DNA of 64,000 bases. Origin: Saccharopolyspora rhizosphaerae. GTDB taxonomy: Bacteria > Actinomycetota > Actinomycetes > Mycobacteriales > Pseudonocardiaceae. Below are positions 26,386 through 37,256 of this stretch, in pieces. The position numbers were made by a program, and so were the translations under genes. A model generated the notes under the pieces. The model worked only from the letters and a program-made list of their open reading frames with translations. It was not told where the DNA came from and made no database searches. Within the stretch, counting starts at the first letter, position 1, and every line of letters begins with the position of its first letter. Location of the stretch: positions 62,001 through 126,000 of the forward strand of contig NZ_RSAA01000020.1 in NCBI RefSeq assembly GCF_003931915.1. Direction: 5' to 3'.

Positions 26386-26404
26386 TATACTACTGATGTA
26401 CCAG
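26386..26404 (+). promoter_or_regulatory. Promoter -10 and operator of the GntR gene
   Basis: TATACT (26386-26391) is a near-consensus -10. CTGATGTACCAG (26393-26404) follows at once and resembles the shared palindrome of the betaine promoters with 3 differences. Binding here would cover the transcription start and allow autoregulation. Confidence 0.5.
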
Positions 26405-26446
26405 AATTCGAATGCAGCAGAACTGCGTTCTGATGAAGTCGGGGCG

Positions 26447-27109
26447 ATGATGACTGCGATCGAGGAGCAACCGGCCAACCTGTCCATGGCGGAGAAGGCG
26501 TACCTCGCCATCCGCGACAAGTTGATCATGCTCGACATCCCGCCGATGGCGCCCATCGACGACGCCGCGCTGGCACGGTCGCTCGAGATCGGCCGCACCC
26601 CCGTGCGCGAGGCCCTCAAGCGGCTGGAGATCGACCGGCTGGTCGTGTCGTACCCGCGCCGGGGCACCTTCGCCACAGCCGTGGACATCACCGACCTCGC
26701 CTCCATCTCCGACCTGCGGGTGCACCTCGAACCGCTGGCCGCGCGCCGGGCCGCCGAGGTCGCCGGTGACGACGACCGGGCGGAGATCAGCTCGCTCGTC
26801 GACCGCCTCGACGGCATGGACTTCCGCTCGATGGTCCGCGACGAGATCATGCGCTGGGACCTGCACGTCCACCGCACGATCTACCGAGCCGCCGGCAACC
26901 CGCACCTCGAAGACACCCTGATCCGCTACGACAACCTCGCCACGCGGATCTTCTGCGTCTTCCTCGACCGCATGCAGGACTTCGACAGCCACGTCATGGA
27001 GCACTCGGCCCTGCTGCGCGCCATCGGTGCGCAGCGGGCCGACAAGGCGGAGCAGTTGGCCAGGGAGCACGTCCTCAACTTCGACAAGGCGATGCGGTCC
27101 CTGGTGTGA
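26447..27109 (+). CDS. GntR-family (FadR/FCD) regulator of the betaine island
   Basis: 220 residues. Winged helix: MAEKAYLAIRDKLIMLDIPP, DDAALARSLEIGRTPVREALKRLE and VVSYPRRGTFA. The C-terminal FCD domain has the expected metal/ligand residues in WDLHVHRTIYRAAGN and MEHSALLRAI. An in-frame ATG at 26396 exists but lies within the operator and at the transcription start, so the ATG at 26447 is preferred. Position next to the betaine genes, and a palindrome found at its own promoter and at three promoters of the island, make it the likely repressor of betaine, dimethylglycine and sarcosine breakdown. The ligand is unknown. Confidence 0.85.
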   Translation: MMTAIEEQPANLSMAEKAYLAIRDKLIMLDIPPMAPIDDAALARSLEIGRTPVREALKRLEIDRLVVSYPRRGTFATAVDITDLASISDLRVHLEPLAARRAAEVAGDDDRAEISSLVDRLDGMDFRSMVRDEIMRWDLHVHRTIYRAAGNPHLEDTLIRYDNLATRIFCVFLDRMQDFDSHVMEHSALLRAIGAQRADKAEQLAREHVLNFDKAMRSLV

Positions 27110-27130
27110 ACCGCCCTGTTGAGCTTGCTC

Positions 27131-27310
27131 TGCTCAGCGGTGCGGGTGGCAGGAACCCCCGGAGGGGAGAGCACAGCGGCTCCGTGGCTCCGCTCCGCTC
27201 CTGATGTGTGCCAGCACACGGCGTCGCGGCGCACTCGCCACGAAGCCGCTCAGAACCTGCGGCGGTGCCGGCTGACTGAGTCCCACACCTGACGAAGCGG
27301 CTGCCGCCGC
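27131..27310 (+). repeat. Dispersed intergenic repeat, copy B
   Basis: About 180 nt, same orientation and block order as copy A at 23341-23482, with a ~45-nt different central segment that includes TGTGC-CA-GCACA. It begins 22 nt after the GntR stop, mirroring the position of copy A after the crotonase stop. No gene seen. Confidence 0.75.
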
Positions 27311-27536
27311 GAACCGCCTCGATGCCGTGGGGACTTCTCACGTCGCGGGAATTCGGTGAGTGGTGGGGGATCCTGCGGGGTGACGCTGAGAACAGCGTCT
27401 TCTTCGCCGCGTGCTTCTGCAGCTCCTCGCCGTGGGAACCGCCCCGCATGGCGGCGATCGAGCGAGTCCGGGGTTGCGGGGCGTTTCTCACTCATGTCCT
27501 TCGTGGACAGTTGTTCTTCCGTCGGCTTCTGCAGTC
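27311..27536. other. Non-coding stretch between repeat B and the reductase gene
   Basis: No credible gene. It contains the stem-loop GACGCTG-AGAA-CAGCGTC at 27382-27399 followed on the plus strand by a pyrimidine-rich run. That could end transcription of the convergent genes on either side. Confidence 0.5.
27382..27399. terminator. Stem-loop between convergent GntR and reductase genes
   Basis: Perfect 7-bp stem (GACGCTG / CAGCGTC) with an AGAA tetraloop, followed on the plus strand by TTCTTC. It lies about 140 nt beyond the reductase stop and 270 nt beyond the GntR stop. Confidence 0.45.
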
Positions 27537-28700
27537 CTACAGGCGTTGGGCCAGTTTTCGGCGCCATTGGCCGAAGGGACGGGAGCGGTCTACGGCGAGG
27601 ACGCCGACCGGTTCGTCCGCGGCGTCGAGGTAGAGGGCCAGGAAGTCGCCGGTCTCGAGGTCGCCCTCCTCGACCTGGACGGTGCAGTCCTCGGTGCGGT
27701 GCCCGGCGAACTGGATCTTGTGCCCGTACTGGTCGGACCAGAAGTAGGGCACCGCGTGGTGCTTCGGAGCCGAACGCTCGCGGCCGAGCAGCGCCGCGAC
27801 GGCCGCAGCCGGCTGCTGCAGCGCGTTGGTCCAGTGCTCCAGCCGCATCGGCCGCGCCGTGTAGTCCCGGAAGGAGCAGGCGCAGTCCCCCGCGGCCACC
27901 ACCTCCGGCAGGAGGGTGCGCCCCGCGGCGTCGGTGCGGACACCAGCGTCGAGGTCGATCCCCGAGCCCGCCAGCCACTCGGTGTTGGGCTCGGCGCCGA
28001 TCCCGACCACCACGACGTCGGCGGGGAGTTCGCGCCCGTCCGACAGCCGCACACCGCTCACCCGTGACTCCCCGACCAGCTCGGAGAGGCCGGAGAGCGC
28101 GTGCACCCGCACACCGTGGCGAGCGTGCAGGCGGGCGCACACCTCGCCCATCTCCGCGCCGAGCGCGCGCCGCAGCGGCACCGGCCCGTTGTCGACGAGG
28201 TCGACCTCGCAGCCCAGGCCGACCGCCGTCGAGGCGACCTCGGCGCCGATGAACCCGCCTCCGACGATCACCAGCCGGGCACCGGGAACCAGGTCGGCCC
28301 GCAGCGCGATCGCGTCGTCGAGGGTGCGCAGCGCGTGCACTCCTGCCAGGTGCGCGCCGGGGAGCTCGCGCGCCCGCGCACCGGTCGCCAGCACGACCCC
28401 GTCGGTGGTGACGCGGGTGCCGTCGGCGAGCACGACCGCGCGGTCAGCGGCGTCCAGGGCGGCGGCGGGCCGCCCGAGCCGCCAGTCGACGTCGAGCTCG
28501 TCGTCGTCGGAGTCGGTGAGGCGGAGGTCGTCCTCGTCCGCGGTCCCGGCCAGGAACTCCTTGGACAGCGGTGGCCGGTCGTAGGGCGGGTGCGGTTCGT
28601 CGCCGATGGCCGTGATCCGGCCGTCGTACCCCTGCTCGCGCAGCGCGCGGATCGCCGAGAGGCCGGCGAGCGAGGCCCCGACGACGGTGATGTGCCGCAT
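27537..28700 (-). CDS. FAD-dependent ferredoxin reductase (Rieske oxygenase system)
   Basis: 387-residue reductase of the rhodocoxin/putidaredoxin reductase type. FAD motif ITVVGASLAGLSAIRALREQ at the N-terminus, VVLATGAR, the NAD(P)-binding VIVGGGFIGAEVAS, and AAGDCACS for the FAD pyrophosphate. The C-terminal domain includes YFWSDQYGHKIQFAG. It passes electrons from NAD(P)H to the Rieske ferredoxin encoded directly upstream (start overlaps that stop by 1 nt). Together they probably serve the glycine betaine oxygenase encoded at 30894-32033. Confidence 0.9.
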   Translation of the reverse strand: MRHITVVGASLAGLSAIRALREQGYDGRITAIGDEPHPPYDRPPLSKEFLAGTADEDDLRLTDSDDDELDVDWRLGRPAAALDAADRAVVLADGTRVTTDGVVLATGARARELPGAHLAGVHALRTLDDAIALRADLVPGARLVIVGGGFIGAEVASTAVGLGCEVDLVDNGPVPLRRALGAEMGEVCARLHARHGVRVHALSGLSELVGESRVSGVRLSDGRELPADVVVVGIGAEPNTEWLAGSGIDLDAGVRTDAAGRTLLPEVVAAGDCACSFRDYTARPMRLEHWTNALQQPAAAVAALLGRERSAPKHHAVPYFWSDQYGHKIQFAGHRTEDCTVQVEEGDLETGDFLALYLDAADEPVGVLAVDRSRPFGQWRRKLAQRL

Positions 28701-29035
28701 TAGACCACTTCCTCCGGCACCGCGCCGCCCACGCGGGACGACTCGTGCACGTAGACCAGGCCGTCCTCGACCGACACGACGTGGGTGCGGACCGGCTTCT
28801 TGGCGGGCGGACCGCTCGGCATCCCGGTCTTCAAGTCGAAACACGCAGCGTGCAGCGGACATTCAACCGCGCAGCCCTCCAGCCACCCGTCGGACAGCGA
28901 CGCGTCCTGGTGCGAGCAGGTGTCGTCGATGGCGTAGAGCTCCCCGTCCACGTTGAACACCGCGATCGCCACGTCACCGTGCACGCGGACCGACTCCCCC
29001 GGTGGCAGATCGCCCAGCTCACCAACCAAGATCAT
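28700..29035 (-). CDS. Rieske-type [2Fe-2S] ferredoxin
   Basis: 111 residues forming a single Rieske domain. Cluster ligands are in CSHQDASLSDG and CPLHAACFD (C-x-H...C-x2-H). GELGDLPPGESV and FNVDGELYAIDDTC are typical of ferredoxins of bacterial aromatic-ring dioxygenases. AGGAGG lies 4 nt before the ATG at 29035; a longer reading frame upstream is not used. It would carry single electrons from the reductase encoded next to the Rieske oxygenase. An inverted repeat (29045-29082) lies just upstream. Confidence 0.92.
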   Translation of the reverse strand: MILVGELGDLPPGESVRVHGDVAIAVFNVDGELYAIDDTCSHQDASLSDGWLEGCAVECPLHAACFDLKTGMPSGPPAKKPVRTHVVSVEDGLVYVHESSRVGGAVPEEVV

Positions 29036-29044
29036 GACGCCTCC

Positions 29045-36784: not shown

Positions 36785-36917
36785 GCTGATCTCCTAACGG
36801 GCGGAGGCGTGAAGCTGGGGAGACCCGCCTGCGACGAGGCGAGAGGCGTTGCGGGGGAGGGATTTCCGGCACCGAGCGGAGCCGTGCGGAGAAAGATCAA
36901 CACTCTCTGGAAGAGGA

Positions 36918-36929
36918 CTGATATATCAA
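36918..36929. promoter_or_regulatory. GntR-type operator at dmgO
   Basis: CTGATATATCAA, palindromic apart from the end base, centred about 15 nt downstream of the dmgO -10 box (leftward transcription). Same core as at 29264-29275 and 37245-37256. Confidence 0.65.
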
Positions 36930-36938
36930 CTGGACATC

Positions 36939-36967
36939 AAGGTAAGCGGCCGCCGAACCGCGGTCAA
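36939..36967 (-). promoter_or_regulatory. dmgO operon promoter
   Basis: On the minus strand TTGACC (36967-36962) and TACCTT (36944-36939) are separated by 17 nt, matching the transporter and soxB promoters. Confidence 0.68.
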
Positions 36968-37207
36968 CACGTGGCCGGGAAATTCCGCCGCCCCAGGGGA
37001 AACCTCCCTCGCACGGGCGAACGACGCGGCGATCGGCAGGTCGAGGGAGCGCGCTCCCTCGACCCGGTCAGGGCCGTTCGCCCAGCGCCGGGAGCAGGAG
37101 CTCCGCCAGCACGCCGGCGCACTCGGAACCCGCTCAGCACCGGCGGATGCCGGCCGCCGGTCATGGCAACTCCCCCGCCTTCCTGACCCGCGCCTGAGCG
37201 AGAGGGC

Positions 37208-37235
37208 TTGACCGGGCGGCGCGTGGTGCTACCTT
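37208..37235 (+). promoter_or_regulatory. sox operon promoter
   Basis: TTGACC (37208-37213) and TACCTT (37230-37235) with a 16-nt spacer, giving a leader of about 80 nt before soxB. Confidence 0.68.
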
Positions 37236-37244
37236 GGTATCCAT

Positions 37245-37256
37245 CTGATACATCAG
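37245..37256. promoter_or_regulatory. GntR-type operator at soxB
   Basis: CTGATACATCAG followed by TTGTC, the same right flank as the transporter site. The centre is 15-16 nt after the -10 box. Confidence 0.68.

Follow-up and report, generated by a model that had tools for sequence, protein, structure and literature searches.

VanR/Atu1419, McbR and PmiR are repressors with palindromic operators. We describe here a candidate operator of this kind in an actinobacterial gene island for the breakdown of glycine betaine, dimethylglycine and sarcosine, located in a 64-kb stretch of Saccharopolyspora rhizosphaerae (positions 62001-126000 of contig C11 in the 5.82 Mb genome G000), which we call the window. 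For Pseudomonas aeruginosa, parts of PMC12093977 describe GbdR and SouR as controlling gbcA, gbcB, dgcAB and soxBDAG on betaine/dimethylglycine and sarcosine. A dedicated regulator of the sarcosine oxidase locus with an inverted-repeat site, SoxR of Bacillus thuringiensis, is presented in portions of PMC4941409, and passages of PMC13390433 describe TmoR of Ruegeria pomeroyi, a GntR-family repressor in a methylated-amine pathway. The same enzymes as in our island are clustered as glyA-soxBDAG-sdaA-purU in Arthrobacter and Corynebacterium sp. U-96, according to sections of PMC3534580; the word GntR is absent from the main text of that paper. Among the matches listed from the open-licence literature (titles and abstract starts; IclR not searched), we saw no GntR regulator of a betaine/sarcosine pathway in Actinobacteria, and the titles listed for the motif TGATATATCA look unrelated. 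On comparative evidence we consider it very probable that aCTGATATATCAGt is the operator of a GntR/FCD repressor encoded at 26447-27109, which would block initiation at the promoters of the transporter, dmgO and sox genes as well as at its own gene and would be released by an inducer.

Promoters and putative operators of the island

The first-pass annotation had proposed that promoters across the island share a palindrome of the form yTGATAyATCAG at a constant distance from the -10 box. Reading of the sequence bears this out for three promoters, all with TACCTT as -10. The transporter promoter (plus strand) has TTGATT at 29227-29232 and, after 17 nucleotides (nt), the -10 at 29250-29255, followed by the operator CAGATATATCAG at 29264-29275, which departs from that consensus at one position. 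On the minus strand, the dmgO promoter consists of TTGACC (36967-36962), a 17-nt spacer and the -10 at 36944-36939, and the operator of the dmgO-sdaA-purU-gbcA run, TTGATATATCAG, lies at 36929-36918. Both operators were recovered in mismatch searches, in the cross-species alignment and in a search with a longer 14-mer. The sox promoter on the plus strand (TTGACC 37208-37213, 16 nt, -10 at 37230-37235) is kept in five Saccharopolyspora; its operator CTGATACATCAG at 37245-37256, found by the mismatch and 14-mer searches, differs in the two central bases from that of the other four, which have CTGATATGTCAG.

The looser copy that had been noted at the gntR promoter is also present, at 26393-26404 on the plus strand (CTGATGTACCAG), and is identical in five Saccharopolyspora. 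It does not follow the distance of 14-16 nt seen at the other promoters, but stands directly after a putative extended -10 (TGC-TATACT, 26383-26391, plus strand) with its centre about 7 nt past it, and so over the presumed start point. At this -10, TGCTATACT is identical in the five Saccharopolyspora while its flanks diverge. The ATG-ATG at 26447 is the likelier gntR start, as the mechanical start of the open reading frame at 26396 falls within the operator. The palindrome is common to the promoters of one pathway and to the gene of a regulator, the arrangement of a local catabolic repressor regulon.

Rarity of the operator

In the 64 kb of the window, eight matches at up to two mismatches (four places, both strands) stand against 1.67 expected, and none of 100 shuffles reaches eight. 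Genome-wide, the core CTGATAYATCAG is found at up to one mismatch at the four island sites and at one further place, on contig C29. The latter falls within an MFS transporter reading frame, as read from the sequence, and was rejected as a regulon target. At up to two mismatches the genome holds 57 forward and 51 reverse matches in total, the reversed control 75 and 81. This is noise level, and the signal therefore rests on the sites with zero or one mismatch together with their conservation; two-mismatch matches elsewhere in the genome, being at or below the reversed control, were rejected as further regulon members. The longer ACTGATATATCAGT at up to two mismatches has three places genome-wide, all of them island promoters, and at up to three mismatches 11 places including the gntR site, compared with 6 for the control. 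The gntR site carries two mismatches on one strand and one on the other, and three in the 14-mer search. The motif search in this genome and its relatives, which the first-pass annotation had put forward as a check, thus shows a motif that is not common at random positions at zero to one mismatch and that tracks gntR orthologues.

Conservation and geometry in relatives

We scanned 300 nt upstream of gntR in 47 actinobacterial orthologues (at least 40% identity over more than 150 amino acids, window included) and derived the expectation from 200 dinucleotide shuffles of each. A site at up to two mismatches is present in 39 of the 47, with 0.31 expected, and at up to one mismatch in 27, with 0.035 expected; upstream of distant FCD-GntR control genes, a site at up to two mismatches was found in none of eight. 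The count leaves out L073 (38%), L094 (31%), a second gene of L049 (33%) and L095-L099. L075, which is the same contig as L047, was left out here and also from the cluster table and the geometry counts. In the alignment of five Saccharopolyspora, of which the window is one, the transporter and sox promoters retain their -35, -10 and operator with little change, while a good part of the DNA between the genes has diverged. The transporter -35 is TTGATT or TTGCTT in the five and its -10 TACCTT; the dmgO -10 differs in L074.

The place of the operator relative to the promoter was assessed for sites at up to one mismatch within the 400 nt upstream of a target, with one target per site, gntR and Rieske targets left out, and promoters of the form TTGnnn-16..18-TAnnnT. 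Of 40 site-target pairs, 27 have such a promoter with 14-16 nt between the end of its -10 and the operator centre; otherwise the range scanned showed just three of these promoters, at -14, 18 and 21. In some relatives glyA lies between operator and soxB (serine hydroxymethyltransferase above cut-off in L051 and L138); the frame chosen at this position in L053 matched no family. The regulation would be of an ordinary kind with an unusually constant geometry, a reading that is well supported.

The candidate regulator

The gntR gene (26447-27109, plus strand) encodes 220 amino acids with an N-terminal GntR winged helix (PF00392, E 2.1e-11, 43.8 bits, cut-off 27) and a C-terminal FCD domain (PF07729, E 2.6e-20, 73.5 bits, cut-off 24.3), placing it in the FCD (FadR-type) subfamily. 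The AlphaFold2 model is confident (mean predicted local distance difference test, pLDDT, 90.4), and the best PDB matches in Foldseek are the FCD-type GntR proteins PmiR, a Brucella GntR, McbR, VanR/Atu1419, AlkR and TM0439. In an alignment of 22 homologues D137 and H185 are invariant and H141 and H207 occur in at least 90%; the four residues align with the same Asp/His residues of TM0439, which bind metal there. All residues of the recognition helix GRTPVREALKRLEI except V are invariant in the 22 rows. We infer that the protein would bind the palindrome as a dimer.

The nearest named homologues come from four Saccharopolyspora (87-89% identity), two Prauserella (83-84%) and a fifth Saccharopolyspora (75%). 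The commonest gntR neighbours are dmgO and soxB, each in 28 of 45 loci with at least 45% identity. The operator also accompanies this GntR subfamily outside the pathway: L070 and L071 have GntR proteins of 44% and 45% identity with the same operator, and the 16-17 kb fetched hold no sox or dmgO homologue. The neighbours of the L070 gene are MFS transporter, reductase, alcohol dehydrogenase and amidohydrolase genes, and an MFS protein was likewise scanned in L071. Conversely, the sox regions of four genomes without a GntR orthologue (L134-L137, 12-13 kb; best GntR match at most 35% identity where listed) show a site at up to two mismatches in none of the four. The second sox-dmgO-metF cluster of the own genome (L133, C32:485000-500000) has neither gntR nor operator; clusters laid out like it in relatives keep gntR, with a site at up to one mismatch in L060, L063, L064 and L067 and at two in L061. 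Taken across genomes, these comparisons strongly support a single regulator for the four promoters, with the adjacent GntR/FCD protein as the candidate.

The bases around the core show a preference as well. A precedes the core in 41 of 55 sites of this regulon and T follows it in 37 of 55, whereas exact CTGATATATCAG beside distant FCD-GntR genes (L142-L145, at position about 1501-1512) is flanked by T...A. A neighbouring frame was scanned in two of these loci, L142 and L144, and is a luciferase-type flavin mononucleotide (FMN) monooxygenase (NtaA/DmoA family in L142). Judged from these copies, the 12-bp core is common to related regulators and not exclusive to this GntR, and the flanking bases may tell the related regulators apart. 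As a separate observation, contig C52 of a 10.7 Mb relative (G007) carries at least 24 copies of CCGATATATCAG, on either strand, over about 414 kb (22571-436560).

Weighing of the evidence

Several observations weigh against the assignment of the operator to this GntR and against its generality. The self-site at gntR is weak by sequence alone. Many loci are close relatives, so that the 47 orthologues are not independent cases. Eight of them have no site at up to two mismatches upstream of gntR: three from Prauserella or Prauserella-like genomes (L048, L078, L079), L059, L066, L072 and both genes of L081, one of which sits behind an sdaA that has the site before it. The 14-16 nt geometry is missing in 13 of the 40 pairs, and in six of these 13 the site is that of the divergent gene (five loci with dmgO at 323-349 nt, and L081 with sdaA at 352 nt). 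L131 and L132, two sox copies whose genomes have an orthologue elsewhere, show no match within two mismatches; a third copy, L130, has too short an upstream stretch (139 nt) to be judged. Among 394 genomes of the class there are 12 copies of the exact 12-mer. Five copies adjoin a GntR of 53-56% identity with soxB (L140, L147-L150) and one stands before dmgO (L151), but four adjoin the distant FCD-GntR genes, of 29-31% identity, and two adjoin neither, one lying beside a flavin reductase frame (L141) and one in a dnaJ frame (L146).

These four copies beside distant FCD-GntR genes give some room to the idea that another DNA-binding protein reads the palindrome, either a second FCD-GntR of the genome or the product of the TetR-family gene at 25548-26261, which adjoins gntR, as its homologues do in several Saccharopolyspora. 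We regard this as unlikely. Of 53 loci just 5 have a TetR homologue beside gntR; all are from Saccharopolyspora, two share one contig, and the fifth named Saccharopolyspora, L080, is not among them, whereas most of the other loci have the operator; the TetR neighbour was rejected as a general regulator on this count. The next-best GntR of the own genome has 34% identity to the query, and the operator follows this GntR subfamily even into the sox-less clusters. It is similarly improbable, in our judgement, that the GntR protein is an activator, or that it represses itself alone and the operon sites have another role. The direction of control is not readable from sequence, and the betaine genes of P. 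aeruginosa are under the activators GbdR and SouR, as stated in parts of PMC12093977, but an operator at a fixed distance downstream of the -10 occupies the position of a blocking repressor and not that of an activator. We give next to no weight to the palindromes being RNA or chance features. The shortness of the core, and a genome-wide count no better than noise at two mismatches, would favour them, yet the rarity at zero to one mismatch, the conservation and the fixed geometry speak against such an origin, and the shuffles and the distant-GntR controls already contradict chance. Having no loop, the palindromes look like DNA dyads and not like hairpins, and Rfam yields no family at gathering score in 26000-38000.

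Repression by the GntR/FCD protein could then work as follows. If the start point lies some 7 nt past the -10, the stretch bound by a GntR dimer would run from about +2 to +15 at the transporter, dmgO and sox promoters; through its weaker site the dimer would cover the start point of its own promoter, and once bound it would stop initiation by RNA polymerase. A pathway carboxylate would bind the metal-dependent FCD pocket and cause the repressor to release the DNA. A carboxylate is favoured because such a pocket suits it. Sarcosine or dimethylglycine is the most likely inducer, since soxB and dmgO are the commonest neighbours of gntR, and betaine would come next. Induction would release gntR and, together with it, the genes for uptake, for demethylating betaine and dimethylglycine, for oxidizing sarcosine, for dealing with formaldehyde and one-carbon units and for deaminating serine.

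A second element at the Rieske ferredoxin operon

The idea of a single repressor regulon is strongly supported for four promoters, with the GntR/FCD protein as their regulator, but it does not extend to all promoters here. One operon, that of the Rieske ferredoxin and its reductase (27537-29035, minus strand), which reads away from the transporter, has no GntR-type palindrome at its own promoter, the transporter operator being about 230 nt upstream of the Rieske start, and carries an unrelated two-box element instead. It comprises the Rieske ferredoxin (28700-29035, Pfam Rieske) and a ferredoxin reductase (27537-28703), named from NCBIfam ferredoxin-NAD reductase models that it matches below their cut-offs, and is possibly the electron supply of the betaine oxygenase. 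Its promoter, placed by eye, has TTGACG at 29113-29108 and a -10-like CATCCT at 29090-29085; 3 nt further begins the element GTTGCG-N13-GTT-N9-GCAAC (29046-29081, minus strand).

This element is exact in 17 of 20 distinct Rieske upstream regions (window included; three repeats, L075, L135 and L136, left out) and has one mismatch in L053. It was not found in the Rieske upstream regions of L092 and L093, where the Rieske gene is close behind gbcA. Two genomes with an exact element (L117, L119) have no GntR orthologue. In the own genome it is exact twice, in the window and before the dmgO of the second cluster (C32:494225-494260), and occurs once with one mismatch (C32:433463-433498, L202), some 45 nt ahead of the point where the alignment to a second gbcA starts; at up to two mismatches the totals of 18 and 8 are near the 9 and 11 of the control. 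Among 150 genomes of the family, 68 hold the exact element, and the reversed control gave 2 matches. In 29 of 30 listed loci chosen by the element (about 3 kb each), an iclR, Rieske ferredoxin, reductase, dmgO or gbcA homologue lies within about 1.5 kb; L200 is the one without any of these.

An IclR homologue with 59-69% identity to that of G012 lies next to the element in 16 of the 30 listed loci. Among the matches listed from an IclR_C scan of 32 genomes, IclR genes lie beside or in a cluster with the element, for example in G509, G028, G057, G019, G036 and G013. These loci likewise include close relatives. The second sox-dmgO-metF cluster of the own genome has an IclR gene behind its soxG (C32:488670-489452), 81% identical to that of G012. 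An RNA hairpin in the Rieske leader was considered (fold z-score -1.95, no Rfam family at gathering score). We favour a DNA operator, because the 36-nt spacing is fixed and the element is also present before dmgO and gbcA. By its company, the element probably belongs to an IclR-family regulator. Since IclR genes accompany it in relatives, the island is most likely under two regulators. We lean, with some reserve, towards a division of labour in much of Actinobacteria, in which a GntR/FCD repressor serves the transporter and the genes for dimethylglycine and sarcosine, and the ferredoxin-reductase, gbcA and some dmgO genes answer to an IclR-type regulator. In our genome the IclR protein, encoded with the second sox/dmgO cluster on another contig, would act in trans, and electron supply and the later demethylations would answer different signals.

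Genes of the island

The island holds gntR, the ferredoxin reductase and Rieske ferredoxin, a ProP-like transporter, the dmgO-sdaA-purU-gbcA run, and soxBDAG with formaldehyde and one-carbon genes. The transporter (29353-30783, plus strand; Pfam PF00083) resembles metabolite/H+ symporters, with ProP as best NCBIfam model at 416.7 bits against a cut-off of 544. The minus-strand run (30894-36784) consists of dmgO (34319-36784), sdaA (32914-34266), purU (32067-32903) and a gbcA-like Rieske oxygenase gene (30894-32042). The sdaA and purU assignments are above the NCBIfam cut-offs, while GbcA reaches 229 bits against 670; dmgO keeps its first-pass name, with which GcvT-like and amino-acid-oxidase-like matches agree, all below cut-off. 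The sox operon (37322-44858, plus strand) is a single gene run, as read from the gene joints, of soxB, soxD (from 38646), soxA, soxG and genes for a mycothiol-dependent formaldehyde dehydrogenase, an MBL-fold hydrolase and a metF-like protein. Here soxB, soxA and mycoS_dep_FDH exceed their NCBIfam cut-offs, and soxG (137.8 bits against 143.95), soxD (111.8 against 116.5) and metF-like (50.3 against 293.7) fall below. The names gbcA-like, soxG, soxD, metF-like, dmgO, reductase and transporter therefore denote resemblance to a family at scores under the curated model cut-offs.

Comparison with known regulators

Glycine betaine is a common osmolyte, and for its breakdown in Actinobacteria the analysis provides testable operators and two candidate regulators. 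A repressor that responds to sarcosine or betaine, and whose operator is known, would also lend itself to use as a sensor. The protein shares its build of a GntR winged helix and an all-helical FCD domain with the FCD-type repressors VanR/Atu1419 of Agrobacterium, McbR and PmiR, and with TM0439 for the metal-binding FCD fold. This is reflected in its Foldseek matches 7xp1, 6za3 (with palindromic DNA), 4p9f and 3sxy and its sequence matches 7xp0, 6z74 and 3sxy. The identity to these repressors is 20-25%, and here the core is CTGATATATCAG and the predicted target the breakdown of betaine, dimethylglycine and sarcosine. The protein also differs from the regulators described for the same substrates. 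GbdR, which is of the AraC type, and SouR are activators, and SoxR of B. thuringiensis is a Sigma54-dependent activator, whereas in the Actinobacteria studied here a GntR-type protein is the presumed repressor. TmoR, which acts on tmm for trimethylamine, is likened to this GntR by its description and not by sequence.

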